From Verrucomicrobiales bacterium (GTDB taxonomy: Bacteria > Verrucomicrobiota > Verrucomicrobiia > Limisphaerales > UBA9464): DNA of 40,268 nt. The stretch covers positions 1 to 40,268 of the forward strand of contig JAIXXC010000324.1 in the NCBI GenBank assembly GCA_027490985.1. Reading direction: 5' to 3'. A program made the position numbers and the translations under genes. The notes below the pieces were generated by a model. The model made no database searches. It was not told the DNA's origin and saw nothing but the letters and a program-made list of their open reading frames with translations. Shown here piece by piece: positions 1,913-38,223 of this stretch (position 1 is the first letter of the stretch; each line of letters opens with the position of its first letter).

Positions 1913-1960
1913 CCCGCGGACTCGCAGCAACTCGCAGGCCAACCCCGACTCGAGCGACCG

Positions 1961-1976
1961 TGGCACGACCCGTGCT
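1961..1976 (+). promoter_or_regulatory. Sigma-54-type promoter of the flgB-flhF operon
   Basis: TGGCACG-N4-GTGCT, with the diagnostic GG (1962-1963) and GC (1974-1975) exactly 10 bases apart, matches the -24/-12 consensus except for one T-to-G change. The predicted +1 is at about 1987-1989, on the flgB ATG. The tract from 1973 to 1987 is nearly identical to that at 36229-36243 before fliW, which supports a functional element. No activator gene is visible in the window. Confidence 0.75.
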
Positions 1977-3155: not shown

Positions 3156-3206
3156 TCCCGCCCGACCCGTGCCCATCCCTGAGCCACAGCCCCCCCGTTT
3201 TCATCC

Positions 3207-4961: not shown

Positions 4962-6001
4962 CCGGAATGGAGACAGCGGCCCGCGACATGCTCCGCGGCA
5001 AGACCGTTCCCACGGGGCCGGTCCGCCTCACGCCCTCCCAGAAGATGGCCGCACTCCTGGTGCTGCTGGGCGAGGAGAGCGCCAGCATCCTGCTCAAGAG
5101 TCTCGATGACAACGAACGCGAACTGGTGTCGTCGGAGATGGTCAACCTGCCTCTGATGACGGTCGAGCAGCAGACCTCGGTGCTCAAGGAATTCACCGAG
5201 ATGGCCATCCAGGCCAACTCCGGGGTCAGCGGTTCGGTGGAGTACACCCGCATGGTGCTGGAGAAGTCGGTCGGCCTGTTCAAGGCGGCCGAGGTGATCG
5301 GTCGCGTGGGCACCCGTCGGACCTCGGTGGCGGCGATGCAACAGATCATCGATCTGGATGCCACCTCCATCTGCAATCTGCTCAAGGAGGAACAACCGCA
5401 GACCATCGCGCTGGTGGTCAGCTACCTCACCGCCCAAAAGGGTTCCGAGGTCCTCAAGAGCCTGCCCGAAAGCCTTCAGGAACAGGTCATCGAGCGGCTG
5501 GCGACCCTGGCTTCGACACCCATCGAAGTCGTCGAGACCGTCGGCGAGGTCCTGTCCAAGAAGATCGGCCGCAAGGTGACCAAGGCGCTCAACCAGACCG
5601 GCGGCATCAAGGCCGCGGCGGCGACCCTGAACGCCATGGACAAGTCGATCCGCCTCGGAATCCTCAACAAGCTGGATGAGCGGGTCCCGGATCTGGTGCG
5701 GTCGATCCGGATGAAGATGTTCACCTTCGACGACCTGGCCACGCTGGACGTCAAGTCGCTCCAGAAGATCCTGAGGGAAGTCGAGGCGGCCCGTCTGGCG
5801 ATCGCATTGAGCGCCGCCAACGAGAACCTGCGACAGACCCTGCTCGGAGCCCTGTCCAAACGGGCCGCCGAAACCGTGAACGACGAGATCTCCAATCTCG
5901 GAAAAACCAGCCTCCGCGAGATCGAGCAGGCCCAGGAAGGCATCGTGGATGTCGTCCGGAAGCTCGAAAGCGACGGCGAGATTTCCCTCGACTCCGCCTG
6001 A
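4958..6001 (+). CDS. fliG: Flagellar switch and torque protein FliG
   Basis: A 347-residue FliG. The N-terminal domain (LTPSQKMAALLVLLGEESAS) binds FliF. The middle domain carries EEQPQTIALVVSYL, the family's EHPQ motif used for FliM contact. A Gly-Gly hinge (TGGIKAAAATLNAMD) and the MFTFDDL motif precede the C-terminal torque helix. Aligned by eye with E. coli FliG, that helix keeps the equivalents of Arg281 and Asp288, has Glu for Asp289, and appears to have Ser for Arg297. FliG interacts with the stators and passes rotation to FliF. It starts inside the fliF stop (ATGA). Confidence 0.97.
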   Translation: MTGMETAARDMLRGKTVPTGPVRLTPSQKMAALLVLLGEESASILLKSLDDNERELVSSEMVNLPLMTVEQQTSVLKEFTEMAIQANSGVSGSVEYTRMVLEKSVGLFKAAEVIGRVGTRRTSVAAMQQIIDLDATSICNLLKEEQPQTIALVVSYLTAQKGSEVLKSLPESLQEQVIERLATLASTPIEVVETVGEVLSKKIGRKVTKALNQTGGIKAAAATLNAMDKSIRLGILNKLDERVPDLVRSIRMKMFTFDDLATLDVKSLQKILREVEAARLAIALSAANENLRQTLLGALSKRAAETVNDEISNLGKTSLREIEQAQEGIVDVVRKLESDGEISLDSA

Positions 6002-6009
6002 TCCATCCC

Positions 6010-6642
6010 ATGACCCAAACATTGCTCCAAAAACCCTCGACCCTCCGCGACATCCGCCTGTCGGTGCTCGGATTCCATCGCGAGGAACGGCTCGCCCCTC
6101 CGGTCGACCAGGAGGCGCAGCGTCGCAAGATCGAACACGAGGCCTACCGTCGCGGGGTCGCGGCGGCCACCGAGGCCTGCGAAGAGCGCGTACGCGCCCT
6201 GCGCGAGGAACTCGAGGCCCGGCATCGCGAAGAGGTCGGGGTCTTCCTCGAGCAGCTCTCCCAGAAGATGTCCTCCCAGCTCGCCGAGCGGATGGAGGTC
6301 CTCGAGAAGGCCCTGCTCCAACTGACCGTCGAGGCCGTGGCCAAGATCGTCGGGAGCCTGCCCATCACCGTCGACGTCATCGAGGCGAGCCTTCGCGAGA
6401 CGCTGGGAGCCGCCGCTGGTGTCCCCGTGCTCCGGGTGATGCTCAATCCCGAGGATCTCAAGATGTTGGAGAACGCCTCGTACAGCGAGATCCGATCCCA
6501 GTGCGCCGCCCGCGGAATCCAGATGACACCCGATCCTGCGGTCGACCGCGGTGGCTGTCTGGTGGAGACCTCGTCCGGCTTTGTCGATGGATTGAGATCT
6601 TCCCGGATCTCCAGCTTCAGCAGCGCCCTTGAGGGGGCCTGA
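6010..6642 (+). CDS. fliH: Flagellar export regulator FliH
   Basis: A 210-residue protein matching FliH/HrpE/YscL, the stator-like partner that holds the FliI ATPase and docks it at the C ring and FlhA. The central part (residues 40-100) is a Glu/Arg-rich helix (EEREEL-type heptads around EACEERVRALREELEARHRE). The C-terminal domain (about 100-210) resembles the V/F-ATPase peripheral stalk. The termination codon overlaps the fliI start by one base (TGATG), in line with a FliH-FliI complex. Confidence 0.9.
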   Translation: MTQTLLQKPSTLRDIRLSVLGFHREERLAPPVDQEAQRRKIEHEAYRRGVAAATEACEERVRALREELEARHREEVGVFLEQLSQKMSSQLAERMEVLEKALLQLTVEAVAKIVGSLPITVDVIEASLRETLGAAAGVPVLRVMLNPEDLKMLENASYSEIRSQCAARGIQMTPDPAVDRGGCLVETSSGFVDGLRSSRISSFSSALEGA

Positions 6643-8054
6643 TGTTCCAACTGGTCCCAGACAATCCGACCGGCCTGCGCTTCGTCCAACAGGCCCAGCA
6701 GCGCCTGCGCGAAGCCCGCCTGACCACCCCGGTCGGTTCGGTGGTGCGGGTGGCCGGACTGACGATCGAGTCGCTCGGGCCCAAGGCGGCCCTGGGCGAC
6801 GTGTGCCACATCCGATGCGCCAGCGGGCGAGAGATCAGCGTCGAGGTGGTGGGCTTCCACAACCAGAACCTCATCCTGATGCCGCTCGACACTCTTGATG
6901 GGCTGTGTCCCGGCGACGAAGTCCGGGCCGCGCCTCAGCGCCGGCGGGTCCCCCTGGCTTCGGGTCTTGCCGGCCGCGTGATCGATGCGCTGGGGCGCCC
7001 GATGGACGGAGGCCCTGCGCCGCAGTGGATCACTCCCACCGGCGACGGGGCCGTGCCGAACCCGCTGTCCCGGGCCCGCATCCAACAGCCTCTGATCACC
7101 GGAATCCGGGCCATCGACAGCTTCACGCCCCTGGGCAAGGGCCAGCGCGTGGGCATCTTCGCCGGCAGCGGTGTCGGCAAGTCCACCCTGTTGGGGATGA
7201 TCGCGCGTCGTTCGGATGCCGACATCAACGTCGTGGCGCTCATCGGCGAACGCGGTCGTGAGGTGCGTGAGTTTCTGGAAAATGACCTGAGCGAAGAAGG
7301 GCGCGCCCGGTCCATCGTCATCGTCGCCACCGCCGACCAACCCGCGCTGCTGCGGGTGAAGGCCGCCTCCTTGGCCCTCCAGATCTCCGAACAGCTGCGC
7401 GATGAGGGGCGCAAGGTGTTGCTGATGATGGATTCGGTGACCCGCTTCGCGATGGCCCAGCGGGAGATCGGACTCGCCGTCGGCGAGCCTCCGACGGCGC
7501 GAGGCTACACGCCTTCGGTGTTCGCCGCATTGCCCCGCCTGCTCGAGCGGGCCGGCAACTCGGACAAGGGATCGATCACCGGGATCTTCACCGTGCTCGT
7601 GGAGGGGGATGACCTGACCGAACCCATCGCCGATGCCACCCGCTCCATTCTCGACGGCCACATCGTGCTGACTCGCGAGTTGGCCGATCGCAATCATTGG
7701 CCCGCCATCGAGGTGCTGGGAAGCATCAGTCGGTTGAATCGGGATCTGCTCGGCCCGGACCAGATCGTCCTCCAGGGCGAGGCCCGCGAATTGTTGGCAT
7801 TGCATCGACAGAACCGCGACCTGATCGGCGTGGGGGCCTATGTGGCCGGATCGAACCCCCGATTGGATCGGGCCATCGCGACCTTGCCTCACCTCGAGGC
7901 GTTCCTGCGTCAATCGCAGACCGAATCTCCGGCGGCCACTCCGCTCTGGGAGTTGCTGGCACAGGCGTTGCGCCAAGGGATGACACCTCCGGTCGCACCA
8001 CCGGGAGACCGCTCCAGACCTCTTGGCGTGTTTCGTGCTGCGACCGCCCGTTGA
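6642..8054 (+). CDS. fliI: Flagellum-specific export ATPase FliI
   Basis: A 470-residue F1-beta-like ATPase of usual FliI size. Walker A is AGSGVGKSTLL at residues 174-184, and the catalytic Glu lies in ALIGERGREV (about residue 203). Walker B is around KVLLMMDSVTRFAMAQREIG, followed by the FliI/SctN signature GEPPTARGYTPSVFAALPRLLERAG. It energises delivery and unfolding of export substrates as a hexamer below FlhA with FliH and FliJ. It has the classical position between fliH and fliJ, with 3 bp separating it from fliJ. Confidence 0.97.
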   Translation: MFQLVPDNPTGLRFVQQAQQRLREARLTTPVGSVVRVAGLTIESLGPKAALGDVCHIRCASGREISVEVVGFHNQNLILMPLDTLDGLCPGDEVRAAPQRRRVPLASGLAGRVIDALGRPMDGGPAPQWITPTGDGAVPNPLSRARIQQPLITGIRAIDSFTPLGKGQRVGIFAGSGVGKSTLLGMIARRSDADINVVALIGERGREVREFLENDLSEEGRARSIVIVATADQPALLRVKAASLALQISEQLRDEGRKVLLMMDSVTRFAMAQREIGLAVGEPPTARGYTPSVFAALPRLLERAGNSDKGSITGIFTVLVEGDDLTEPIADATRSILDGHIVLTRELADRNHWPAIEVLGSISRLNRDLLGPDQIVLQGEARELLALHRQNRDLIGVGAYVAGSNPRLDRAIATLPHLEAFLRQSQTESPAATPLWELLAQALRQGMTPPVAPPGDRSRPLGVFRAATAR

Positions 8055-8057
8055 GGT

Positions 8058-8471
8058 ATGGGCCGATTCCGTTTCAGCTTGGAAACACTGCTCCAGATCC
8101 GCGCGTCCCAGGAGACGGCCGCGGCTCAGGGTCTTGCTCAGGCCAATCAGGAGCAGGACCGCCTCCAACGCGATCTGGACCAGATCCTCGCCGACGGACG
8201 TGCGCTCAAAGATTCGCTCGCCGAAGGCGGCGTTGCCGCCTCGATTTCGATCGCCTTGAGACCCGGTCTCCGCCTCAACGCGGAACGGGCCCGCAACGCC
8301 CTGGCCCATCACCGGCCTCTCGTCCAGCAACGCTTGGCCGAATGGCAGCAGGCCAAGCTTCGATTGAGTCTGCTCGAGAAGCTCCGTGAGGCCCGTCTGA
8401 AGGATTTCAAGCGATCAGAACAACTGGCCGAGGAACGCTGGCTCGATGAGCGGGTGGTCCAAGGCTTCTGA
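8058..8471 (+). CDS. fliJ: Flagellar export protein FliJ
   Basis: A 137-residue, almost wholly helical protein beginning MGRFRFSLETLLQIRASQE, the typical FliJ N terminus (F-x-F-x-L-x-x-LLxIR). The rest is a Gln/Arg/Glu/Leu-rich antiparallel coiled coil. FliJ is the central stalk (gamma-like) of the export ATPase and carries chaperones back to the gate. FliJ sequences diverge strongly, so the call also rests on the position directly after fliI. Confidence 0.92.
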   Translation: MGRFRFSLETLLQIRASQETAAAQGLAQANQEQDRLQRDLDQILADGRALKDSLAEGGVAASISIALRPGLRLNAERARNALAHHRPLVQQRLAEWQQAKLRLSLLEKLREARLKDFKRSEQLAEERWLDERVVQGF

Positions 8472-8477
8472 ACTCCC

Positions 8478-9233
8478 ATGCGCACTCTTCTTCTGGCTCT
8501 TCTGATCGTCCTGCTGGGCATCGGCACCTCGGTGGCCACGTTCCTCTGGGGCGGCAAGGTCGCGCGCGCCCGCATCCAGGAAGCGATGACCCAGATCCTC
8601 GAGGCCTCTCAGGCCGCGAAAGCGATCAAATCGCCGGAACAGGATATCCTGCAGGATCCCCCGGATGTCCAACCGGCGGGCAATGAGCGTCAGACCGAAC
8701 TGAGTCTGGCCGCCCTGGAGGCGATGCGGGAGACCGCCGAACCGGGCTCGCTGCGGTTCGACAATCCGGATGTGGTGAATCTCCTCAACCAATTGCGCAG
8801 TCGGCAGGAGTACCAGGACAGCCGGGAAAAACGCCTCAAGGAGTTGGAAGAGCGGATCCGCCTCGAGATGCAGAATCTCAACATGGCCACCCAGTGGATT
8901 TCCCAAGCCCGCATCGCCCAGGACAACCTGCTGACGAACCGGATCACCTACCTCCGGGTCGAGGAACAGCGAAGCCTCCTCGAACATGGGCGGCGACTCA
9001 CCGCGCTTCAGCCCGCACAGGCGGTGGCGATCTTGACCAATTACACTCCGGACGAGATCGCCCGGACCCTGAGCGTGATCAACTCGACCAATGCGGCCTC
9101 ACTGCTGGGCGCCCTGGTGGGCACGGGCGAATCCGGGGTGCGGCTGGCCGCGGACATCTCCAAGCGGATGATGCACATCTCCCTCCGCTCACCCGACGGG
9201 ACCAATGCCGCATCGGTCACCCCTGCTCCATGA
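8478..9233 (+). CDS. MotE/YlxF-like flagellar protein
   Basis: A 251-residue protein with one N-terminal membrane anchor (residues 3-25), a variable segment, a coiled coil at about 95-180 (Arg/Glu/Leu/Gln-rich, around RSRQEYQDSREKRLKELEER), and a C-terminal MgtE-N-like helical repeat (QPAQAVAILTNYTPDEIARTLSVIN, then a second Ala/Leu-rich helix to 240). This is the layout of MotE (YlxF), which in several phyla lies between fliJ and fliK and in alphaproteobacteria is a periplasmic chaperone for MotC. That the same architecture sits in the same slot here is strong, but function in this lineage is inferred. Its stop overlaps the fliK start (ATGA). Confidence 0.75.
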   Translation: MRTLLLALLIVLLGIGTSVATFLWGGKVARARIQEAMTQILEASQAAKAIKSPEQDILQDPPDVQPAGNERQTELSLAALEAMRETAEPGSLRFDNPDVVNLLNQLRSRQEYQDSREKRLKELEERIRLEMQNLNMATQWISQARIAQDNLLTNRITYLRVEEQRSLLEHGRRLTALQPAQAVAILTNYTPDEIARTLSVINSTNAASLLGALVGTGESGVRLAADISKRMMHISLRSPDGTNAASVTPAP

Positions 9234-11632
9234 CGTCCCCCGATTTGAAGGCGCTGGACTCGGGTCCTCGCGCCGCGTTGTCCGTTCCCTGGAACGCGGA
9301 CGCCATCGGTTCCGTCGGTGAATCGGCCGGATCGGTCGAATTCCGGCAACACCTCACCACCGCGCAGTCGGGGACCGGGGCTCCCCGTTCATCGGACGAG
9401 GCCGAAGAGCCTGGTTCCATCTCGGTCGCGCGACCTGGGCTGCCCTCAGTCACCCCGCACAAGGCCTCAGTCAGACCCGTCGAAGAGAATCCGGCAAAAC
9501 CGCTGGTGCGCCCTGTTCGCAAAACCGCTTCGACCGCTCCGATCCTGAGCACTGCGAAGCTGCGCGAATTCTCGCATTCCGAAATACCCGCGGTCGGAGC
9601 GCAACCGGCAGCCGAAGTTGGCGAGAGGGATGGCTTGTTCGTGATCCCCAGTCGGGCCTCCCGAGAACCGATCGAACAGCCAGAGCCTCGACCCGCCGAC
9701 CCCGGTCGACGCGGGGGATCGGAGTTGGAAACCGCGAACCGCCTGGGTTACGCACCGGATCACCCCCCCATCGAGTCATCGACCGGGGCCGACCAATCCG
9801 TTCACCCGATCACCGACCTGATTCCCACGACATCCAGGAAACAGCAGACCCGCCCCTCGTCCGCTGGCAGCATGGCTGCGTCGGAACCGGAAGTTCTCGC
9901 AACCGAGCGTGATGGAATGGCACCCGACCGCGGGACACTGGAAGGTCTGCCCCGCGGCCGCGGATCCATCGCGCCTCCGGGGAGTGACCTCGGGCATGAG
10001 CCTCAGAGGACTCCGGTGACGCCATTCGGGAGCGAACCCTCGAAGCGATCCGCATCCGCGACTCCGCAAGCACCGGGAGCGGAAAGCCGCTCAACCGGCT
10101 CGGCCCCTGCGACCCAGTCCCAATCGTCTCAGGACGCCTCGTCTCAGTCCCAATCGGCATGGACTGCGACGTGGGAGGGCATGCCGTCGGACCTGCGCGA
10201 AGTCGTGGTGCGAAGCGTTCAAGCCTCTGTCACCACAGCCGCCAGGAGTCCGGCGACCACCACTCTCAGGGCCGCCTCGAATGGCGACGCGCTGCGAAGC
10301 ATGATTCTGCAGCCAGAGGGAGTTGTTCCGCCCTCCTGGCTGTCAACCGATTCGGGCGACGGATCCGTGCCGGAGTCCACACCCGCGGACAAGGTCGGCT
10401 GGCCGACCGCAAAGGCCGCCGGGGCGGCATCGCCTCCGCGATCGGCAAGCCGAACCGAGGACTCCGCACTTCGTGCGAATCCTGTTTGGAATACCCCTGC
10501 CGGAGGAGTCCTGCCGGGACGATCACTCCAAGCGCGGGATACAGGGTTGCCGCCGATACACTCGGATCTTCGCCGCCCCCCCTCCCCGGCGATCGTGGTG
10601 CCTCAGTCGGCAGGGATTCCCATGGAGACGACCCTGCTCGGAACAATCCAGGTTGCTTCCGTCACCCCGCTTTCCGAAACCCGCGGTCCGGACTCCACGA
10701 CAAATCCGATGACACCGGATTCGTTGCCTTCAATGACCACGGCACGGGGGGCATCGGAGTCTGACGCATTGGAGGCTGCGGAGCGTTTCGAAGACCCGGT
10801 GACGCGCCCATCGCCCACCGAGGTGAGCTCCCTCAAGGCGCTCCGGACTGCGGGCCCAGGGCTTTCAGCGAAACCCGATGGACATCCGCAACGGGACGCA
10901 TTCGGTCTCACTGCGGGCCGCGACCAGCGCAGAGACACCGATCCAGACTCGGCGACTCGCCCATCGGATCAGGCCCTACCGTTCGACGGCCATGGCCCAG
11001 TCGAGAGGGGCGGCTCCGAATGGGGTGGTTCCGAAGAAACCCATCCGGACCGAAGCTTGTCGGAGACGGCCACTGCGAGGGCGACGACGACGGAGCCGTG
11101 GATCGGTTCCAGCCCGCTCCCGTCGGAGCCCCGGGCCTCGGATCGATCCGCGGCCGAAGAAACCACGCTCCGGCATCCCCCAACTGCGGAGGCTCCGAAG
11201 TCGGGAACCATCCGGCATATCCACTTGGATACGGCCGAAGCCCAGGGCGTTGAACTGCAACTCCAGACGGTGGGCGATCAACTCGTGATTCACACCCAAG
11301 ACCTTCTCGGTTCACTCGAAGGTGAGAGCGCTCGATGGAAAGACCTCCAGCAGCGCCTGGAAGCCAACGGGATCGTCCTCCTGCCGATCGAGTCGCGGAT
11401 CCCAACAAACGACCTGTCTTCCAACACCCAAACCCCATCGAACCCGGAGCGGCACACGGGTTGCTACGACGGCGCCATGGACACCTCTGGTCGTGATCAT
11501 TCCGGCTCACGCTCGACGAGTACCCCGCCGCCGTCGCGAGGGCCCGAGGCGGCTCTGTCAGAAGCGGATGTGCCGACTGGCGAGTCAGTGGGCGCTGATC
11601 GGGCGTCGGACTCCCGCGGTTGGTGGGCCTGA
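9230..11632 (+). CDS. fliK: Flagellar hook-length control protein FliK (long, low-complexity)
   Basis: The ATG at 9230 overlaps the previous stop (ATGA) and gives 800 residues, well above the usual 350-650. Residues 1-650 are Ser/Pro/Thr/Gly/Arg/Glu-rich, without predicted globular segments, as expected of the secreted molecular ruler. The C-terminal Flg_hook domain is recognisable but weak, at about 660-730 (around GTIRHIHLDTAEAQGVELQLQTVGDQLVIHTQD, then a helix and GIVLLPIES). In FliK this domain touches FlhB to switch export from hook to filament substrates. Position between the motE-like gene and flgD supports the call. Length and low complexity could mean a longer hook. Confidence 0.85.
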   Translation: MTSPDLKALDSGPRAALSVPWNADAIGSVGESAGSVEFRQHLTTAQSGTGAPRSSDEAEEPGSISVARPGLPSVTPHKASVRPVEENPAKPLVRPVRKTASTAPILSTAKLREFSHSEIPAVGAQPAAEVGERDGLFVIPSRASREPIEQPEPRPADPGRRGGSELETANRLGYAPDHPPIESSTGADQSVHPITDLIPTTSRKQQTRPSSAGSMAASEPEVLATERDGMAPDRGTLEGLPRGRGSIAPPGSDLGHEPQRTPVTPFGSEPSKRSASATPQAPGAESRSTGSAPATQSQSSQDASSQSQSAWTATWEGMPSDLREVVVRSVQASVTTAARSPATTTLRAASNGDALRSMILQPEGVVPPSWLSTDSGDGSVPESTPADKVGWPTAKAAGAASPPRSASRTEDSALRANPVWNTPAGGVLPGRSLQARDTGLPPIHSDLRRPPSPAIVVPQSAGIPMETTLLGTIQVASVTPLSETRGPDSTTNPMTPDSLPSMTTARGASESDALEAAERFEDPVTRPSPTEVSSLKALRTAGPGLSAKPDGHPQRDAFGLTAGRDQRRDTDPDSATRPSDQALPFDGHGPVERGGSEWGGSEETHPDRSLSETATARATTTEPWIGSSPLPSEPRASDRSAAEETTLRHPPTAEAPKSGTIRHIHLDTAEAQGVELQLQTVGDQLVIHTQDLLGSLEGESARWKDLQQRLEANGIVLLPIESRIPTNDLSSNTQTPSNPERHTGCYDGAMDTSGRDHSGSRSTSTPPPSRGPEAALSEADVPTGESVGADRASDSRGWWA

Positions 11633-11646
11633 ATCTCTCTAATTCC

Positions 11647-12102
11647 ATGATTCCCTCCTCGTTCACCACGCCGGCGGCGACCCAGGCCTCGCAAGCCAAC
11701 ACCGCCGCCCAGCGCCCCATGGCCAAGGTGCTGGGGCAGGATGATTTCCTGAAGCTCCTGACCCTGCAGATGCAGAATCAGGATCCGATGAATCCGCAGA
11801 CCAACACCGACTTTGTGGCCCAGATGGCCCAGTTCACCACGTTGGAGCAGTCCCGGAGCATGACCAACAGCCTGCAAAGCATCCAAGCGCGGCAGGATGT
11901 CCAGACGGCCGTCCAATTGCTGGGCAAGCCCGTGCAGCTCTCCGATGGCCGCATGGGTCTGGTCGAGAAGGTCACCCTGGACAGCACCGGTGCCCCGACC
12001 CTTCAGGTGGGATCCAACACCTACAAACTCAATCAGGTCGTCGCCTACGACCCACCCCAGGATCCGTTCGCAAGGCTGACTGCTTCGCCCGTGGGTCCGT
12101 AA
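11647..12102 (+). CDS. flgD: Flagellar hook cap / hook assembly protein FlgD (short form)
   Basis: A 151-residue protein from the ATG at 11647; non-ATG starts up to 27 bases upstream are possible. It carries the FlgD signature LGQDDFLKLLTLQMQNQDPMNP at residues 31-52, followed by the TDFVAQMAQFTTLEQ motif. The C-terminal 60 residues form a small beta-rich tudor-like piece (LGKPVQLSDGRMGLVEKV). The Ig-like/FlgD_ig domain of enterobacterial FlgD (about 230 residues) is absent, as in the short Bacillus-type FlgD. It caps the growing hook and is exported by the type III gate. flgE follows after 45 bp. Confidence 0.95.
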   Translation: MIPSSFTTPAATQASQANTAAQRPMAKVLGQDDFLKLLTLQMQNQDPMNPQTNTDFVAQMAQFTTLEQSRSMTNSLQSIQARQDVQTAVQLLGKPVQLSDGRMGLVEKVTLDSTGAPTLQVGSNTYKLNQVVAYDPPQDPFARLTASPVGP

Positions 12103-12147
12103 GACCGGTTTTCAATGCACTGACACAGCACCCCAACAGACACACCC

Positions 12148-13065
12148 ATGATCAGGTCCCTCAACACCGCCAGCCTCGGTATCCGCCAATTCCAGGCCTC
12201 GCTGGACGTTCTGGCCAACAACCTCGCGAACCTCAACACCGTGGGTTACAAGGGGAGTCGGGCGGATTTTGTGGAATCACTCAATTCGGTGCTCCGGGCG
12301 CCCACGCCCGACACGGCCACGGCCAGCGGCACCTCGGGCGTGTCGTTGGGCAATGGTGTGGCCACGTCGGCGATCCGCTCGAATTTCTCGCAGGGCTCCA
12401 TCAATCAATCCGGCTTGGCCACCGACTTCTCGATCACCGGCAAAGGATACTTCCTCGTTCGCAACTCGACCTCGGGCGAAGTGTTCGCCACCCGGTCGGG
12501 CAATTTCAGGCTCGATTCGGCCGGCTACCTCGTGACCGACGGGGGACTGCGGGTCCAGGGCGTCGAAGACACCCAGAAAGATGCCAACAAGATTGGCGAC
12601 ATCCGCTTCAACAAAGGGACGGTGCCTTCCAATGCCGCCGCCACGGCCGCCACGGCGGCGATCACCAACATCAGCGTCGATGGCTCCGGTCGCTTGAACA
12701 CGCTGCTGGACGACGGCACTCAGTACGTCCGGGCACAGATCGTCCTCCAGAGTTTCAGCAACGAGCAGGCGCTCGTCCGCGCCGGCAACAACCTGTTCAC
12801 CAATCTCGGAGCCTCAGGTCCATCGGCGGCCAGCGCGACCTCGCCGTTCACCTCGACGCCGAGCAGTCCGATTCTCGATGGCGCCCAGCGGGCCAACCAG
12901 GATGGCATGGGTCGCATCGAGCAGGGTTCCCTCGAGCTCTCCAACGTCGATGTGTCGCGGGAGTTCTCCAACATGATCACCACCCAGCGCGCCTTCCAGG
13001 CCAGCGCTCGCATGATCACCACCAGCGACTCGATCCTCGAGGAACTGGTCAACCTGAAGCGCTGA
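12148..13065 (+). CDS. flgE: Flagellar hook protein FlgE
   Basis: A 305-residue axial protein. The N terminus has LDVLANNLANLNTVGYKGSR, the canonical hook/rod motif ANNLANxxTxGYK, and TDFSITGKGYFLVRN marks the flgE/flgF/flgG family D1 domain. The C terminus ends in VDVSREFSNMITTQRAFQAS and a final LVNLKR helix. FlgE and FlgG are alike. The neighbours flgD (cap) and fliK (ruler) argue for hook, and the length is short for FlgE (around 400 in enterobacteria), so the outer domains are reduced. A FlgF/FlgG identity cannot be wholly excluded. Confidence 0.8.
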   Translation: MIRSLNTASLGIRQFQASLDVLANNLANLNTVGYKGSRADFVESLNSVLRAPTPDTATASGTSGVSLGNGVATSAIRSNFSQGSINQSGLATDFSITGKGYFLVRNSTSGEVFATRSGNFRLDSAGYLVTDGGLRVQGVEDTQKDANKIGDIRFNKGTVPSNAAATAATAAITNISVDGSGRLNTLLDDGTQYVRAQIVLQSFSNEQALVRAGNNLFTNLGASGPSAASATSPFTSTPSSPILDGAQRANQDGMGRIEQGSLELSNVDVSREFSNMITTQRAFQASARMITTSDSILEELVNLKR

Positions 13066-13084
13066 ACCTGAACCCGGAGTCTCC

Positions 13085-13876
13085 ATGTCTGACGCACCCG
13101 ACAAAGACAAGAAGCCCGCGGGCGAGGAACCGGCCGCAGGGGCGGCCAAGGCCTCCAAAGGCGGCATGCTGGTGCCGCTCATCGCGGCCGCCCTCATCTC
13201 GGTGGGTGGCAGTTTCGGGGTGGGGTTTTTCCTCAACAAGCAGTTGCTCAACGGCATCAACAAGGAGCTGTCGCTGACGCTGGCCCAGGTGGGCGCCGCC
13301 GAAGACCATGGCGATGGGCATGGTGCGAGCAAGGATCCGAAAGCGGCTTCCAACGCTCATGGTTCCGGCACGGCTGCCCATGGCTCCGATGCCTCCCACG
13401 CCAAGCCGGCCAAGGACGACGGCCATGGGGCCGCTGCCGATCACGGAGCCGCCCCCAAGAAGGCCGATGCGGCCGCAGGACATGACGCTCCGAAGCCCAA
13501 GGATGACGGGCATGGAGGGGCTCCGGCCAAGAAGGAGACCCCCGAGGAGATCGCCAAGGCGGCCCAGATCAAAGCCGGCCTGTTCCCGCTGGGCACCGAT
13601 CCCATCGTCGCCAATCCGGCCGGCGACAGTCGTTTTGTGGTGGTCAAGGTCACATTGCTGAGCGTGGGCCAGGCCGACATCTCGGCCGCGGTCGATGCCA
13701 ACATCGACCGACTCCGGGATGCCGTCTCGGCCTTCCTGGCCGACCAGCGCATCGACGACATGCAGAAACGCGGCTTCCGCAGCCAGATGGCCGCGCAACT
13801 GGCGCTGGCCTTCAACCGGATTCTCGGTCCGGGCACGGTCAAGGAGATCATCTTCCCGCAGTTCGTCATTCAGTGA
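13085..13876 (+). CDS. fliL: Flagellar basal-body protein FliL with a His-rich linker
   Basis: A 263-residue protein, longer than typical FliL (about 150-180). A short charged cytoplasmic tail precedes one transmembrane segment (residues 28-50). An unusual extracytoplasmic linker at about 72-150 follows, rich in His, Gly, Asp, Ala and Lys with nine histidines in DHGDGHG-like units. The conserved stomatin-like FliL domain occupies 165-263 (DSRFVVVKVTLLS, then FLADQRIDDMQ and a TVKEIIFPQFVIQ ending). FliL rings surround stators and support torque. A GGAG Shine-Dalgarno-like sequence is present, unlike most genes here. The stop overlaps the fliM GTG start (GTGA). Confidence 0.92.
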   Translation: MSDAPDKDKKPAGEEPAAGAAKASKGGMLVPLIAAALISVGGSFGVGFFLNKQLLNGINKELSLTLAQVGAAEDHGDGHGASKDPKAASNAHGSGTAAHGSDASHAKPAKDDGHGAAADHGAAPKKADAAAGHDAPKPKDDGHGGAPAKKETPEEIAKAAQIKAGLFPLGTDPIVANPAGDSRFVVVKVTLLSVGQADISAAVDANIDRLRDAVSAFLADQRIDDMQKRGFRSQMAAQLALAFNRILGPGTVKEIIFPQFVIQ

Positions 13877-14799
13877 GCGCCACCGATACAACGGCGTCGG
13901 TCGGTGGAGCCAAGGCCCCGACCGAGGTGAAACCCTTTGTCGTGGGTCAGGCCAGTTCGCTGTCCGCCCAGGAGCTGAATCGGTTCCGCATCCACAACGA
14001 AGGCATCGTGCGTTCGGTCGGAGCGCGGCTGTCGCTGTTTCTGCGGGCCGAGTTCGCCTTCGACCTCGAGCACCTCGACGCCATGGAGCTCGGGCGCTAC
14101 GCGACCAAGGCCGAACCCATCGGCAACTACCTCCTCTTCCAGGTGGACCGTTTCCCGGGCATCGGCGTGGTGGGATTCCCCAAGCCCCTGGCCCTGGCCA
14201 TCGGTGATCGGATGCTCGGGGGTCGGGGTTTCGGGGCCAATCCCGATCGGGAACTGCGCGAAGTGGAGTTGGCCCTGCTCAACCAGGCCGTGCAATTGGC
14301 GCTGAAAGAATACTTCTCCAAGTGGAGCGACTCCGCGGAGGAGGCCAAGGTGCGCATCGTGGGTCGCGAGACCAACATCAAGCTTCTGGCCGAAGACCAC
14401 CCCACGGCCATCGTCTACATCCTCAAGGTGCAGGCCATCATCGGCGACTGCTTCGCCACCGTGGACATCATCCTGCCCCTCGAGATGATGGCCCAGAGCA
14501 TCCAGCGGGCGATGGTGACCATGGGCGAGGCCGGTGCGGATGCGGTCAACGCTCCGAAGGACCAGGTGGTCTGGAATCCGGCCTACGACGACCTTTCGCT
14601 GCGCCTCAGCGCCCTGTGGTCCGGACTGTCCATCACTCCCCGCGAAATCCTCCAGATGCGGGCCGGAGACATGATTCCGCTGGACCCCGCCAAGATCGAC
14701 CAGGTGGAACTGCACATCGAGGGCCTGCCGCGCTTCCGGGGAAAACTCGGGAGTGCCAACCGCAAGGTGGCCATCGAGATCACTGAACGCCTGACCTGA
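13873..14799 (+). CDS. fliM: Flagellar motor switch protein FliM, lacking the CheY-binding peptide
   Basis: A 308-residue FliM starting at a GTG that overlaps the fliL stop. The middle CheC-like domain is recognisable (MLGGRGFGANPDRELREVE, then an amphipathic helix). The C-terminal SpoA/FliN-like domain lies at about 235-305 (LSLRLSALWSGLSITPREILQMRAGDMIPLDP). The first 37 residues are Ala/Thr/Val/Lys-rich and do not contain the LSQ-EIDALL peptide that binds phospho-CheY in most FliM proteins. The protein joins FliG and FliN in the C ring. Loss of the peptide suggests that switching is controlled another way or not at all. Confidence 0.93.
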   Translation: MSATDTTASVGGAKAPTEVKPFVVGQASSLSAQELNRFRIHNEGIVRSVGARLSLFLRAEFAFDLEHLDAMELGRYATKAEPIGNYLLFQVDRFPGIGVVGFPKPLALAIGDRMLGGRGFGANPDRELREVELALLNQAVQLALKEYFSKWSDSAEEAKVRIVGRETNIKLLAEDHPTAIVYILKVQAIIGDCFATVDIILPLEMMAQSIQRAMVTMGEAGADAVNAPKDQVVWNPAYDDLSLRLSALWSGLSITPREILQMRAGDMIPLDPAKIDQVELHIEGLPRFRGKLGSANRKVAIEITERLT

Positions 14800-14807
14800 A
14801 ACGAACC

Positions 14808-15086
14808 ATGTCCCAAGAAACCAGTGACAATCCGTCCATCGAGTTCCTCCTCGATGTGCCCATCCAATTGAACGCCGAGCTCGGCTCGTGCGAGATGACC
14901 TGCCGCGAGTTGCTCAAGCTGGACATCGGCTCGGTGGTCCAATTGGACAAGCCGGCCCACGCCTCGGTGGACCTCTTCGTGAACACCAAGCTCGTGGCGC
15001 GGGGTGAAGTGGTCGTCGCCGAGGGCAACTTCGGCATCAAGATCAAGGAGGTCGTTTCCCGACCCGGTTCCCTGCCCAAGGCATGA
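14808..15086 (+). CDS. fliN: Flagellar motor switch protein FliN
   Basis: A 92-residue, single-domain SpoA protein, near the minimal FliN. It shows the signature FLLDVPIQLNAELGSCEMTC, then LLKLDIGSVVQLDKPAHASVDLFVNTKLVARGEVVVAEGNFGIKI. FliN forms the base of the C ring with FliM and holds FliH. There is no extra N-terminal region of the FliY type, which would carry a CheC phosphatase. The stop overlaps the fliO start (ATGA). Confidence 0.96.
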   Translation: MSQETSDNPSIEFLLDVPIQLNAELGSCEMTCRELLKLDIGSVVQLDKPAHASVDLFVNTKLVARGEVVVAEGNFGIKIKEVVSRPGSLPKA

Positions 15087-15484
15087 CCAATGTCGCTCCA
15101 GCATTGCCTGCGGTTGCCGGAGCGTCGTCGATGCTGGCCGATTGGACCCGGATGCTCGGGACCGTGTGCCTGCTATTGGGCACCGTCTGGGTGGCCCTCA
15201 TCTGGCTGAAGGGCCGCAACTGGTTCCAATCGACCCTCGATCGGCGGATCCGCCTGCGGGTCGAGGAGACCCGAGGCCTCGGCAACCGGTCGTTCCTCCA
15301 CCTGGTCTCCTGCGGAGGCCAGCAGTTCCTCGTTTCCTCCTCGCCTGCCGGCGTCTCGATGATCGCGGAACTCATGCCCGACGAGGGCACGGCCATCGCC
15401 AAACCCTCCCCGGAGGTTCCCTTCGCCCAGCGCCTGGACGAGGTGCTGCCGAAAAACACCCCGCCGGGATCGGACCGACCATGA
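15083..15484 (+). CDS. fliO: Flagellar export-gate assembly protein FliO
   Basis: A 133-residue protein with one transmembrane segment (about 22-44: WTRMLGTVCLLLGTVWVALIWL) and a cytoplasmic part that matches FliO (RRIRLRVEETRGLGNRSFLHLVSCGGQQFLVSSSPAGVSMIAEL). FliO helps assemble the FliP ring of the export gate. It lies between fliN and fliP, the usual place, and overlaps fliP by four bases (ATGA). Confidence 0.88.
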   Translation: MTNVAPALPAVAGASSMLADWTRMLGTVCLLLGTVWVALIWLKGRNWFQSTLDRRIRLRVEETRGLGNRSFLHLVSCGGQQFLVSSSPAGVSMIAELMPDEGTAIAKPSPEVPFAQRLDEVLPKNTPPGSDRP

Positions 15485-16344
15485 ACAGCGAATCCCCAAA
15501 TCATCGATCCGGGGTCGGGGGGCACGGTGATGGATGGCTCGCTTCAATCCCTCCACGGCCGTCGGTGATCCGGTGGCTTCGCTGCTGGATGCTGTTCGGA
15601 GTGTGGCTCCTGGCAGGTGGCTTCCTTCAAGCACAGGTCGACGGCTCGGTGGCCACCAATGCCGCGGTTTCGGTTCCCACCGGCGTGACCTTCAGCATCA
15701 ACGGACTGCCCAAACCGCAGGATGTCGATGTCACCATCCAGATCGTCGGTGCCTTGACCCTGCTGTCGCTGGCTCCCTCGCTCCTCATCCTGATGACGAG
15801 CTTTCCGCGGGTGATCATCGTCTTTTCGCTGGCGAAGAATGCGTTGGGAGTGGCTTCGGCGGTTCCGAACCAACTGGTGGTCGGGTTCTCGCTGATCCTC
15901 ACCTTCTTCATCATGAGGCCCGTGATCCGGGACATGGAGACCACGGCCCTGGCTCCGTACCGGGCCAATCAGATCACCAGCACCGAAGCCCTGGATCGGG
16001 CCTCGCTTCGCATCAAGGCCTTCATGCTGCGGCAGACCCGGACCGACCAGGTGGAGTTCTTCGCCGGATTGGCCGCGATCCCTCCCACCGAAGCCAAAGA
16101 TCTCCCGCTCTCGGTCGTGGTTCCCGCCTTCCTGATCAACGAACTGCGGACGGCCTTCCAGATGGGGTTCCTGGTCTTCCTGCCGTTCCTGCTCATCGAC
16201 TACGTGGTGGCCATCATCCTGATGAGCCTCGGCCTGATGTTCCTGCCTCCGGCCAACATCTCCCTGCCCCTCAAGATCCTGCTGTTCGTCTTGGTGGACG
16301 GCTGGGGTCTCATCACCAAATCCCTGGTCAACAGCTTCATCTGA
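15481..16344 (+). CDS. fliP: Flagellar export-gate protein FliP
   Basis: The ATG at 15481 overlaps the fliO stop and gives 287 residues, within the FliP range. An N-terminal signal sequence (hydrophobic core at about 35-55, ending at LQAQ) is expected because FliP is cleaved. The mature part has the family motifs LTLLSLAPSLLILMTSFPRVIIVFSLAKN, then NQLVVGFSLILTFF, LPLSVVVPAFLINELRTAFQMGFL and VDGWGLITKSL. Five FliP subunits with FliQ and FliR make the export channel. It is followed by fliQ after 28 bp. Confidence 0.97.
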   Translation: MNSESPNHRSGVGGHGDGWLASIPPRPSVIRWLRCWMLFGVWLLAGGFLQAQVDGSVATNAAVSVPTGVTFSINGLPKPQDVDVTIQIVGALTLLSLAPSLLILMTSFPRVIIVFSLAKNALGVASAVPNQLVVGFSLILTFFIMRPVIRDMETTALAPYRANQITSTEALDRASLRIKAFMLRQTRTDQVEFFAGLAAIPPTEAKDLPLSVVVPAFLINELRTAFQMGFLVFLPFLLIDYVVAIILMSLGLMFLPPANISLPLKILLFVLVDGWGLITKSLVNSFI

Positions 16345-16372
16345 GAGCGTTGTCCGTTTCGAAAACCATCGC

Positions 16373-16642
16373 ATGACCCCGGAACTGGCAGTCGACCTCC
16401 TCAAACAACTGGTCGAACGGATCTTTGTCGTGGCCTCTCCGTTGCTGCTCACAGCGATGATCACCGGCCTGGTGGTGAGTCTGATCCAGACGGTCACCTC
16501 GCTCCAGGAACAGACGCTCAGTTTCGTGCCCAAAGCCCTCACCGTGCTCGGGGTGTTGTTGATGATCATGCCCTGGGCCCTGCAGATCGTCATGGACTAC
16601 ACCACCGGCGTCATCGGCCTGATGGGACGCATCAACCGCTAG
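16373..16642 (+). CDS. fliQ: Flagellar export-gate protein FliQ
   Basis: An 89-residue, two-helix membrane protein of the usual FliQ length. It carries the conserved VVSLIQTVTSLQEQTLSFVPK motif in the loop after the first helix and a second hydrophobic helix (VLGVLLMIMPWALQIV). Four FliQ subunits wrap the FliP-FliR helical assembly of the export gate. The order fliP-fliQ-fliR is classical. Confidence 0.97.
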   Translation: MTPELAVDLLKQLVERIFVVASPLLLTAMITGLVVSLIQTVTSLQEQTLSFVPKALTVLGVLLMIMPWALQIVMDYTTGVIGLMGRINR

Positions 16643-16651
16643 GATCGGCAC

Positions 16652-17434
16652 GTGGACGCCCTGTGGACAGGCTGGTGGGTGCTGTGGCGTACGGGCGCCT
16701 GCCTGTCCGCGTCGCCACTCACCTCGGGGCGGGGCATCCCCGTACGGGTCCGCCTGATGGTCACCCTCGCGGTGGCCTGGGCCATGATCCCCGTGGCCCA
16801 ACGCATGCCCATCCCACCCATGACCTCGGGCTGGTTGGAGGTGTCGTTGCTCACCGCCCGCGAGACCCTGATCGGGTTGTTCCTGGGTTTCAGCTCCCGC
16901 TTCGCCGTGTTCGCCGCCCAAGGCGCAGGACAATTGATCTCCAATGAAATGGGGCTCCAGAGCGCCCAGATCTTCTCGCCGGGATCGGGTGAGATCTCGA
17001 ACGAACCCAGCGTGATGCTCGAGTTCCTGGCCCAGGCGATCATGTTCGTCGGAGGGTTCTACGACCGTTGGTTGCAAGCGTTCGCCGAGAGCTACCACCT
17101 GCTGCCCATGGTGTCGGCCGGCGCGGCCGACGGAGCGGGGATGCTGAACTGGATCGGCTCGATGACCGCGGCCACCTTGCTGCTGTCCGTGAAGCTGGCC
17201 ATGCCGGTCATCGCCGGCGGCTTCCTGCTCAATGTCGCCCTGCTGCTGCTCGGGCGAGCCCTGCCCCAACTGCCGGTCTTCCAAGACAGCTTCCTGTTCC
17301 GGGCCATCATCGGTCTTTTCCTCTTCGGCGGTAGCCTGCACCTCGCGGCACTCCACCTCGGCGGCCGATCACAACGCCTGCCGGGCGACCTTCTGGATGC
17401 GGCGGCCCTGCTGCGGTCGCTTCCTGCCCAATAG
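16652..17434 (+). CDS. fliR: Flagellar export-gate protein FliR
   Basis: A 260-residue membrane protein beginning at a GTG 9 bp after fliQ, of usual FliR length. It has six or so hydrophobic segments. Family features include the N-terminal TGACLSASPLTSGRGIPVRVR region, the ETLIGLFLGFSSRFAVFAAQGAGQLI motif and the later PVIAGGFLLNVALLLLGRALPQLPVF motif. One copy completes the FliP5-FliQ4-FliR1 gate. FlhB docks around it. The final 20 residues are polar. Confidence 0.95.
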   Translation: MDALWTGWWVLWRTGACLSASPLTSGRGIPVRVRLMVTLAVAWAMIPVAQRMPIPPMTSGWLEVSLLTARETLIGLFLGFSSRFAVFAAQGAGQLISNEMGLQSAQIFSPGSGEISNEPSVMLEFLAQAIMFVGGFYDRWLQAFAESYHLLPMVSAGAADGAGMLNWIGSMTAATLLLSVKLAMPVIAGGFLLNVALLLLGRALPQLPVFQDSFLFRAIIGLFLFGGSLHLAALHLGGRSQRLPGDLLDAAALLRSLPAQ

Positions 17435-17442
17435 GCGAACCC

Positions 17443-18534
17443 ATGGCCGACGATCCCGAGAGCAAAACAGAGCAGGCGACGCCGAAGCGCCTGCAGGAAT
17501 CGCTCAGCAAGGGTCAGTTCGCCCGCAGCGCCGAAATCAATACGCTCTTCAGCATCCTGACGACCCTCGTCATCCTGAAGTGGGTCGGACCGGACCTCTG
17601 GAGGGCTTTGACGTTCCAGTTCCAAGGGCTCTTGGGAAGCCTCCGGCCCGACCTGCCCACGGCCGATTCCATCGTGAGCGGCGCCTACTCCAGCGCCCTC
17701 CGGCTGTCGGGATTCATCCTCGCGCCCTTGGGGTTGGCCATCGTCTCCGGGATCATCGCCTCGGGGGTGCAAAGCCGATTCCAGTTCACCCCGGGGGCCC
17801 TTGCGCTCAATTGGGGGCGGTTGAATCCCCTGGACGGATTCCAGCAACTCTTCAAACCCGGGATGCTCGTGAGAACCGGGGTCAAGATGCTCAACCTGGC
17901 CCTGATTCTCTGGGTGGCGTCGACGTTGGTCTGGGACCTGGTGAACCATCCGGTGTTCCTGACGGATTCGAGCCTCGAGGAACTCCTCCGCTTCATGGGT
18001 GAGGCCGTGGAGAAACTCTTGGGAAGGCTTCTCTTCGGCTTGGCACTCATCGTGGCCGGGGACTACGGCTACCAACTCTGGAAAACCTCCCGGGAACTGA
18101 AGATGTCCAAGCAGGAGGTGAAGGAGGAATCCCGCTCGAGCGAAGGCGATCCGGAGTCGAAGGCCCGGATGAAGAAGGTGATGCGCAAGATGCGCCTGAG
18201 TTGGATGAAAACGGTGCCCACCGCCGATGTCGTGGTCACCAATCCCACCCACCTGTCCGTGGCCCTCAAGTTCGACGCGAACGTCGACAAGGCACCGCGG
18301 GTGGTGGCCAAGGGCCAGGGGTTCAATGCCCTGCGGATCCGTGAGATCGCCCGGAACCATCAGGTTCCCCTGGTGGAAAACAAGCCGGTGGCCCGCCTGC
18401 TGTTCCAGATCTGCGAGGAAGGCGATGCGATCGACCCGCGGGTGTACCAGGCCGTGGCCGAGATCCTGGCCTTCGTCTATCGGACCAACCGCTACCGCTA
18501 CTACCTCGGCAAGAACACATCACCGAATGGCTAA
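17443..18534 (+). CDS. flhB: Flagellar export switch protein FlhB
   Basis: A 363-residue FlhB of normal length starting MADDPESKTEQATPKRLQE, the family N terminus (xKTExATPKRLxE). It has four transmembrane segments at about 35-55, 88-108, 142-165 and 185-208. The cytoplasmic domain contains the autocleavage tetrapeptide NPTH (residues 267-270), so the substrate-specificity switch should work. FliK touches this domain to change from hook to filament export. The stop lies six bases inside flhA. Confidence 0.97.
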   Translation: MADDPESKTEQATPKRLQESLSKGQFARSAEINTLFSILTTLVILKWVGPDLWRALTFQFQGLLGSLRPDLPTADSIVSGAYSSALRLSGFILAPLGLAIVSGIIASGVQSRFQFTPGALALNWGRLNPLDGFQQLFKPGMLVRTGVKMLNLALILWVASTLVWDLVNHPVFLTDSSLEELLRFMGEAVEKLLGRLLFGLALIVAGDYGYQLWKTSRELKMSKQEVKEESRSSEGDPESKARMKKVMRKMRLSWMKTVPTADVVVTNPTHLSVALKFDANVDKAPRVVAKGQGFNALRIREIARNHQVPLVENKPVARLLFQICEEGDAIDPRVYQAVAEILAFVYRTNRYRYYLGKNTSPNG

Positions 18535-36047: not shown

Positions 36048-36216
36048 CGATTTGATCAATACAGGAGCAAAGATGGGCTTCCGATCGACTCGCGATCGCG
36101 ATTCGACAGACTCGACCCGACCCTCGTTCGAGCGCCCATCTGGAGCCACTCAGAACGATGCGTCACCCTCGTCTCCGACTTAAGCAATTTCGGGGCGGCC
36201 GCCCTCTGATTTCCGT

Positions 36217-36232
36217 TGGCATGCCCGTTGCT
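36217..36232 (+). promoter_or_regulatory. Sigma-54-type promoter of fliW-csrA-fliC
   Basis: TGGCATG-N4-TTGCT, with GG (36218-36219) and GC (36230-36231) ten bases apart, fits the -24/-12 consensus closely. The predicted +1 is at about 36243-36244, on the GTG of fliW. Downstream, 36229-36243 matches 14 of 15 bases of the equivalent tract before flgB. The promoter governs flagellin expression together with its regulators. Confidence 0.8.
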
Positions 36233-36243
36233 GCGGGTCTCTC

Positions 36244-36681
36244 GTGCTGGTCATCGAATCTCAACAGCAAGTCAGGGGCGCGACTCCGGAAACTCCGGAA
36301 ACCGCGGTTTCCCTGATGTTTCCCGATGGATTGCTCGGCTTTGAAACCCTGAGGAAGGCTGCTTTGGAACCGGTGGTCGACGCCCCGCCGTTCTCGTGGT
36401 TGAAGTTCTCCGGAGAGGTGGATCAGTCGTTTTTGGTCGTCGCCCCCGTGTTCGTGACGGCCTCGTACCGCTTCGAATTGGGTTCCACCGATTGTCGGAC
36501 CCTCAACCTCACACGCGCCAGCGAAGCGGGAGTCCTCAATATCGTCACCCTCCGGCGGGACGGATCACTGACGGTCAATCTCAAGGGACCGATCGTGTTC
36601 AACAAGACGACCGGCGAGGCGCGCCAGGTGGTGCCGATCAACGCGGCCGAACTGCCCGTGAACTTCCCCGTGGCCAACTAG
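36244..36681 (+). CDS. fliW: Flagellar assembly factor FliW
   Basis: A 145-residue FliW of usual length, starting at GTG. The family core is present (MFPDGLLGFETLRKAALEPV, then PPFSWLKFSGEVDQSFLVVAP, LNIVTLRRDGSLTVNLKGPIVFN). FliW binds flagellin and the CsrA protein: when flagellin is exported, free FliW inhibits CsrA and so lifts repression of flagellin translation. The order fliW-csrA-fliC fits that partner switch. Because the promoter's +1 falls on the GTG, the mRNA may be leaderless; the next ATG (36316) would remove the first beta strand. An 18-bp tandem repeat near codon 15 encodes TPETPE. Confidence 0.94.
   Translation: MLVIESQQQVRGATPETPETAVSLMFPDGLLGFETLRKAALEPVVDAPPFSWLKFSGEVDQSFLVVAPVFVTASYRFELGSTDCRTLNLTRASEAGVLNIVTLRRDGSLTVNLKGPIVFNKTTGEARQVVPINAAELPVNFPVAN
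36283..36312 (+). repeat. Tandem 9-bp repeat and 16-bp palindrome inside fliW
   Basis: ACTCCGGAA occurs twice in tandem (36283-36300), followed by the overlapping perfect palindrome GGAAACCGCGGTTTCC (36297-36312). CsrA prefers GGA motifs, often in hairpin loops; two GGA triplets occur here early in the fliW coding region. A CsrA site is possible but not established. Confidence 0.4.
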
Positions 36682-36704: not shown

Positions 36705-36953
36705 ATGTTGGTCCTCTCCCGAAAATTGAATGAAGCCATCCGGATCGGCGGAGACATCTCGATCCGCGTCGTTCGCATCGATCGCGACACGGTCCGACTG
36801 GGCGTGAGTGCGCCCAAGGACATCGGAGTGCACCGAGAAGAGGTCTACCTCGAGATCGTTGAAAACAACATCGCGGCCGCCGAATCGGCCACCCCTGAAC
36901 AACTTTCCCTGCGACTCCAGCAATTGAAGGCCGAAGCCGCGAACTCCCTTTAA
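36705..36953 (+). CDS. csrA: Carbon storage regulator CsrA
   Basis: An 82-residue CsrA starting MLVLSRKLNEAIRIGGDISI, followed by RIDRDTVRLGVSAPKDIGVHREEVY and a C-terminal helix, the classical dimeric RNA-binding fold. The extended C-terminal tail (about residues 60-82) is of the FliW-binding type. CsrA represses translation by binding GGA-containing sites; in Bacillus and relatives its main target is flagellin mRNA. It lies 23 bp after fliW and 34 bp before fliC. The fliC leader (36954-36987) has no GGA motif and no Shine-Dalgarno sequence, so repression here, if any, does not use the Bacillus-type site. Confidence 0.97.
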   Translation: MLVLSRKLNEAIRIGGDISIRVVRIDRDTVRLGVSAPKDIGVHREEVYLEIVENNIAAAESATPEQLSLRLQQLKAEAANSL

Positions 36954-36987
36954 CCGAAACCACAACCGCAGCCCAACCCTCCCCACC

Positions 36988-38223
36988 ATGGTCATCAACA
37001 CCAACGTCCAGGCGCAGCAAACGGCCAACAACCTGAATGTGAGCTCCAACGCCCTGGCCAAGTCGCTGGCACGACTCTCCTCGGGCTCCAAGATCATCGC
37101 ACCGTCGGACGACGCCGCCGGCCTGGCCGTGAGCAGCCGCTTGGAATCGCAGCTCAAGCGTCTCGACGCCGCCATCAACAACGTGGTGAACGCCGTGTCC
37201 TTCACCCAGACCCAGGACGGCTTCCTCAAGACGATCGACAAGGCCTTCCGCCGCATGTCGGAACTGGCGATGTTCGCTCAAGACTCCACCAAGAGCGCGA
37301 GCGACCTCACCCTGTACTCCCAGGAATTCACCCAGCTGCAGGACTACGTCCGACAGACGGTCACCCAGACCTTCAACTCGGTGAAGTTGTTCTCGACCAA
37401 CTCGTTGGCGGTCACCATCGATTCCACCGGAACCACTTTCGACATGGCGCCGATCGACCTCTCGAAGACCGAGTACACCTCCTCGCTGAGCGTGGCCCAA
37501 TCGTTGACCAATGCGAACATCCAGAACATTGCTCGCGACGCCAATGGAAAGATCCAGTTGACCGTCACAGAAGAGGAGTATTTGAAAATGGCGAAGGGTG
37601 GATCGCTGACGCTTTCCGGGTTCGCTTCGGCTACTCCAACGGGTTCTAGTGCCACGAGCACCGATTTGTCCGGTCTCAATGGAACGTTCGATATTACGGA
37701 CGCTTTCAAGGTGACCGACACTGCATCCACGCCGACCCACAGATACATCATCGAACTGGACGGAAAGGCTGGCGGAACCACAGCCTTCGGGACTGCCACG
37801 ACCTTCACCAGCACGACCACCAACGGAGTCACCACGAGAACGGTTCCCGTATTCCCTGCCAGCGGGATTTTCACCGGAACCAATGCAGACATCGCAACGG
37901 CTGTCTCCGCCAAGACCGGCTTGGACATCACCTCGGTCCCCCGCGCGCAGGCCGCACTCACCCGCATCCGCAACTCGATCGACAAGCTGGCTCAAGATCG
38001 CGCGTCGCTGGGTGCCGTGCAAAGCCGACTCAACTTCACCAACGAGCAGCTCACGGTGACCAAGGAAAACCTCAGCGCCGCTATTTCGCGCATCGCCGAC
38101 GTGGATGTCGCCGAGGAAGCCACCGCCTACGCGCGCTACCAGATCCTGGTGCAGTCGGGCACGTCCATGTTGGCCCAGGCCAACAAGATGCCTCAGAGCG
38201 CGCTGCAGTTGCTGCAGAACTGA
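36988..38223 (+). CDS. fliC: Flagellin FliC
   Basis: A 411-residue filament protein. The N-terminal D0/D1 region spans about 1-150 (MVINTNVQAQQTANNLN, LSSGSKIIAPSDDAAGLAVSSRLESQ). The C-terminal D1/D0 region spans about 310-411 (SRLNFTNEQLTVTKENLSAAISRIADVDVAEEATAYARYQIL, ending ANKMPQSALQLLQN). The middle domain, residues 150-310, is variable, Thr/Ser/Gly-rich and surface-exposed; its codon and base composition departs from the flanks, as discussed below. The filament is exported through the flhA-fliPQR gate. Only one flagellin is seen here. Terminator hairpins follow. Confidence 0.96.
   Translation: MVINTNVQAQQTANNLNVSSNALAKSLARLSSGSKIIAPSDDAAGLAVSSRLESQLKRLDAAINNVVNAVSFTQTQDGFLKTIDKAFRRMSELAMFAQDSTKSASDLTLYSQEFTQLQDYVRQTVTQTFNSVKLFSTNSLAVTIDSTGTTFDMAPIDLSKTEYTSSLSVAQSLTNANIQNIARDANGKIQLTVTEEEYLKMAKGGSLTLSGFASATPTGSSATSTDLSGLNGTFDITDAFKVTDTASTPTHRYIIELDGKAGGTTAFGTATTFTSTTTNGVTTRTVPVFPASGIFTGTNADIATAVSAKTGLDITSVPRAQAALTRIRNSIDKLAQDRASLGAVQSRLNFTNEQLTVTKENLSAAISRIADVDVAEEATAYARYQILVQSGTSMLAQANKMPQSALQLLQN

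Follow-up and report, generated by a model that had tools for sequence, protein, structure and literature searches.

The window analysed here is a stretch of 40,268 nt, one contig of a 3.49-Mb Verrucomicrobiota metagenome-assembled genome of 349 contigs, which was searched by pattern. The relatives used for comparison are mostly Verrucomicrobia bins, several of them lake-derived going by their isolate names. The locus of interest contains the genes fliW, csrA and fliC, preceded by a sigma-54-type element, and has the following features:

36179 to 36184, no strand: CTTAAG palindrome, 38 bp upstream of the TGG of the fliW element; a candidate regulator contact, whose function we infer.
36217 to 36232, plus strand: sigma-54 -24/-12 element of fliW, TGGCATG-CCCG-TTGCT (TGGCATGCCCGTTGCT), located by pattern match and weight matrix.
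36229 to 36237, plus strand: TGCTGCGGG, an extension running from the -12 box that recurs within the same flagellar system at the promoters of flgB, flgF and the TPR and Sel1 genes.
36243 to 36244, plus strand: predicted transcription start of fliW, 12 to 13 nt past C36231, at C36243 or G36244 (first base of the start codon), as given by sigma-54 geometry.
36244 to 36681, plus strand: fliW, 145 aa, GTG start (Pfam FliW, 6.8e-25).
36705 to 36953, plus strand: csrA, the next gene of the probable operon (Pfam CsrA, 1.8e-22), in the same order in seven genomes.
36988 to 38223, plus strand: fliC (flagellin), downstream of csrA, with a 34-nt leader lacking GGA and a Shine-Dalgarno (SD) sequence.

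The genome harbours two flagellar systems, and fliW, csrA and a flagellin gene stand in one row in both. The second set (G000:C144:27846-29361, locus L007) has a sigma-54 element of its own, and its csrA is preceded by the strong SD sequence AAGGAGGGT.

The sequence TGGCATG-CCCG-TTGCT before fliW is a near-perfect sigma-54 element, with the GG and GC dinucleotides at -24/-12, the fixed spacing and the consensus context all present. Its position directly before the GTG and its sequence are as given by the first-pass annotation. When the whole window was searched for TGGCAYGN4TTGCT with zero mismatches, it was the sole match, and with 19.8 bits it has the top score of a simple weight matrix in the window. 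Counted from the C of the element's GC, the GTG at 36244 begins at base 13, and it adjoins the 3' end of TGCTGCGGGTCTCTC (36229-36243). The machinery is encoded in the genome: rpoN was found on contig C233 (PF04552, E 4.7e-59), together with seven strong sigma-54 activator domains, five of which have an intact GAFTGA motif.

Could the element resemble the sigma-54 consensus by chance? Genome-wide, the plain consensus has 23 matches versus 36 for the reversed control, thus there is no excess, and the case for a promoter rests on position and conservation rather than on counts. We scored the 250 bp in front of the FliW core with a threshold of 13 bits. Of 87 distinct fliW loci of Verrucomicrobiota across the order, 84 have an element, versus 0.25% of shuffled 250-bp fliW upstream sequences, and the best score among 22 fliW loci from outside the Verrucomicrobiota was 7.8 bits. 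An element is also present in all 30 flgB loci examined, although in some it is weaker or has CGG instead of TGG. This position-specific conservation already refutes a chance match, to which we give practically no probability.

The comparison with related genomes that the first-pass annotation had proposed gave the same site in all seven congeneric fliW orthologues, with the element and the GTG at an unchanged distance of 13. The identity to the window is 30-52% in the 110 bp upstream and 75-88% in the element. Thus, the view that the spacing is under selection gained support, since element and 13-base distance were kept in seven genomes while the upstream DNA diverged. Downstream, codons 1-6 of fliW are 94-100% identical to the window and codons 7-24 are 67-85% identical in these seven genomes, which suggests an additional constraint at the nucleotide level on the 5' end of the gene. 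The palindrome CTTAAG (CTTTAG in one case) precedes the fliW element by 38 bp in five genomes; in the other two the offset is 48 bp, longer by one helical turn.

Across the order, the distance from the C to the fliW start codon is 13 in 6 loci, 15 in 10, 16 in 26 and 17-19 in 9, followed by values from 20 to 46; these counts are phylogenetically non-independent and we claim no significance for them. The loci with distances of 13-17 belong to at least seven families and hence do not represent one clone. For the fliW of the second flagellar system, the distance is 16 in nearly all genomes. No reliable fliW distance below 13 was found in the order; the single value of 11 (L233) is due to a misassigned fliW start, and an in-frame ATG lies further downstream. 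Such a hard lower edge at 13 would be imposed by transcripts starting 12-13 bases past the C.

These data bear on the possibility that, next to a genuine sigma-54 promoter, a promoter further upstream supplies most of the fliW mRNA, with an ordinary leader, the close spacing merely reflecting a compact intergenic region. We consider this unlikely. The intergenic region of at least 94 bp is compatible with it, but the upstream DNA is unconserved while element and spacing are kept, and an unrelated upstream start would not explain why the start codons of the order stop sharply 13 bases past the C. Moreover, a leader from upstream would still be devoid of an SD sequence.

According to the alignment, the GTG is the start codon of fliW: it is invariant in the seven genomes, and codons 2-24 evolve as coding sequence, with no indels, no stops and, in most pairs, differences mainly at third positions (the closest pair, G000/G018, is uninformative in this respect). 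An alternative start at ATG 36316, which the first-pass annotation had raised against its own proposal and which would give the sigma-54 message a leader of about 72 nt, lies directly before the conserved FPDGLLGFE core of FliW. However, this ATG is replaced by a non-ATG codon, GCA, in five of the seven orthologues (one has a TTG nearby), thus FliW cannot start there in those genomes. Further, the 24 preceding codons stay in frame with pS of about 0.5 versus pN of 0.04-0.24 in most pairs, and distant FliW proteins begin with an ATG at the position aligned to the GTG (MLTIE, MLTLQ). We therefore regard a start at ATG 36316 as very improbable.

With transcription starting 12-13 bases past the C, the predicted leaders are 0-1 nt long for fliW and 1-2 nt for flgB. 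Since the start point of sigma-54 promoters can shift by one or two bases, the fliW leader could be 0-3 nt long. Throughout the fliW and flgB orthologues of this system, the start codon begins with a purine and follows a pyrimidine, a pattern that suits initiation on the first base of the codon. The proposal of a leaderless fliW message was thus strengthened in the sense of a near-leaderless one: the GTG stands 13 bases past the C and this distance is kept, while a leader of zero length would follow from sigma-54 geometry.

No SD sequence was detected upstream of fliW (-3.7 kcal/mol) or flgB (-2.5), compared to a mean of -4.2 for random 20-mers. The flgB of the other system has a longer leader and was tested at four loci: three of them have a strong SD sequence (-11.8 to -16.4), and the remaining one gave -7.8. 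We rejected the idea that the absence of an SD sequence is special, because most flagellar genes in the window lack an SD sequence; SD use is sparse in this genome generally, which makes its absence weak evidence. Verrucomicrobiota with scarce SD sequences are known (PMC10783764). Many start codons of the flagellar genes at 2814-17443 follow directly on CC or ACC, as in CCCATG and ACCATG, which may point to a preference in non-SD initiation.

The fliW promoter had been described as the twin of an element before flgB, where we found the following features:

1961 to 1976, plus strand: sigma-54 element of flgB, TGGCACGACCCGTGCT, identified by pattern match and orthologue comparison.
1989 to 2372, plus strand: flgB, with its ATG 14 bases past the C of the GC.
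1926 to 1941, minus strand: sigma-54-like element TGGCCTGCGAGTTGCT before a Sel1-repeat gene that is divergent from flgB and has its ATG at 1912.

The two sites are near-identical but not identical, the spacing being 13 at fliW and 14 at flgB in the window. In the orthologues, the flgB distance is 13 in eight other loci and 15 in G018. The notion of two copies with a fixed distance therefore does not hold: the genome has at least four such sites at distances of 13-15, plus the second fliW at 16. The flgF distance is 15, and the same value separates the C from the ATG of the Sel1 gene at each of the ten flgB loci, which come from nine genomes. This Sel1-repeat gene, divergent from flgB and equipped with its own sigma-54-like element, has a signal-peptide-like start. 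The start codon is ATG in flgB, flgF, the Sel1 gene and the second fliW; fliW has GTG in all seven genomes, in place of the 5'-terminal AUG that is usual, although not universal, among described leaderless mRNAs.

Back-to-back sigma-54 promoters, both with TGCTGCGAG, are located between flgF and a TPR gene (G000:C203:3175-3232, locus L143). Here flgF is near-leaderless and the divergent TPR gene is not, its ATG being 52-54 bases away (24 in G012). For this reason, and because the flgB of the second system and of other families stands at 16-34, mostly above 20, we dismissed a leaderless message as a general property of sigma-54 targets.

The promoters of the set share more than the consensus. 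The pattern TGGCAYN6TGCTGCGRG has 22 matches in 10 of 19 genomes of the genus versus one for the reversed pattern, and the loci identified are fliW, flgB, flgF and the TPR gene divergent from flgF. Allowing one mismatch added the Sel1 promoter, while two mismatches gave background only. The extended motif marks one of the two flagellar systems. That the fliW and flgB sites also agree in a trailing TCTCTC holds for this genome alone; the relatives retain just TGCTGCGRG (GCGAA in the G018 flgB). In sigma-54 flagellar promoters, A/T is usual at the place of this G+C-rich extension. It sits where sigma-54 promoters melt, and one guess is that it could slow down opening.

As to CsrA, the fliW leader had been named as the place where this protein normally acts in Bacillus. 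This is incorrect: Bacillus CsrA represses flagellin (hag) via the hag leader, not fliW via the fliW leader. The row of fliW, csrA and flagellin genes is the same as in the FliW-CsrA-flagellin homeostasis of Bacillus subtilis, and here it occurs in both systems, but the flagellin leader of this genus lacks GGA and an SD sequence. A search of the 60 nt before fliC at the seven orthologous loci gave no GGA, and the flagellin leaders of the genus (window 36954-36987; L013-L019; L007:2247) are without GGA and SD sequences in both flagellar systems. Thus, the usual target of CsrA is missing in the genus, whatever the leader of fliW. In several other families of the order, flagellin leaders contain GGA repeats and an SD sequence. 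Both fliW and csrA are kept in the genus despite its flagellin leader.

Comparison with known systems helps to place these observations. The sigma-54 flagellar promoters of Vibrio, Campylobacter, Helicobacter and Caulobacter have the same class of element (TGGCAY-N5-TTGCW), RpoN, NtrC-type activators and flagellar targets. In contrast to them, the start codon here lies 13-16 bases past the C of the GC, leaving almost no leader, and the promoters belong to the phylum Verrucomicrobiota with fliW as a conserved target. The leaderless mRNAs of Mycobacterium, Deinococcus, Leptospira, Sinorhizobium and Campylobacter likewise lack an SD sequence and, as predicted here, begin on the start codon or a few bases away from it. 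Unlike the present case of sigma-54, and of GUG at fliW, the leaderless promoters described in the literature consulted are sigma-70-like (PMC3847290, PMC4842269), and an AUG start is reported for the leaderless mRNAs of Sinorhizobium (PMC3616915) and Campylobacter (PMC3847290). In Leptospira, which has many leaderless mRNAs, cell-motility genes are underrepresented among them at 37°C (PMC5243855). The main text of a cross-phylum study on sigma-54 regulons names Verrucomicrobia and is silent on fliW and on leaderless messages (PMC12316311), and a literature search of limited reach revealed no published report of a leaderless sigma-54 regulon.

Based on sequence comparison, it is very likely that the near-leaderless sigma-54 promoter at fliW is real and selected; that it depends on RpoN, starts at the predicted base and yields a message translated from its very 5' end is what we infer. 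The data are best read as a flagellar regulon of sigma-54 promoters that is conserved and near-leaderless (0-5 nt). In the mechanism that we propose, RNA polymerase with RpoN would bind GG and GC at -24/-12 of the fliW promoter, an NtrC-type activator would open it, and the RNA would start at C36243 or G36244, 12-13 bases past the C, so that FliW translation would begin at a 5'-terminal GUG without SD interaction. We consider it probable that a sigma-54 (RpoN) promoter of this kind drives fliW-csrA-fliC of one flagellar system with a leader of 0-1 nt. Since the leaderless mRNAs of Sinorhizobium and Campylobacter are reported to start with AUG, a GUG at the 5' end could be a poor initiator, unless translation in this lineage is different. 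More tentatively, and with the balance somewhat against it, selection could have placed the transcription start of the order's flagellar sigma-54 promoters on the start codon itself; initiation would then be leaderless (5'-GUG for FliW), outside SD and leader control, and gated by the activator.

The implications are several. The distance from the -12 box to the start codon, followed across the order, can provide an evolutionary estimate of a transcription start where RNA data are lacking. The proposed mechanism makes a sharp prediction, namely that the 5' end coincides with the start codon, GUG included. Last, it would join enhancer-dependent sigma-54 transcription and leaderless translation, which are usually treated separately, in conserved flagellar genes of a little-studied phylum.
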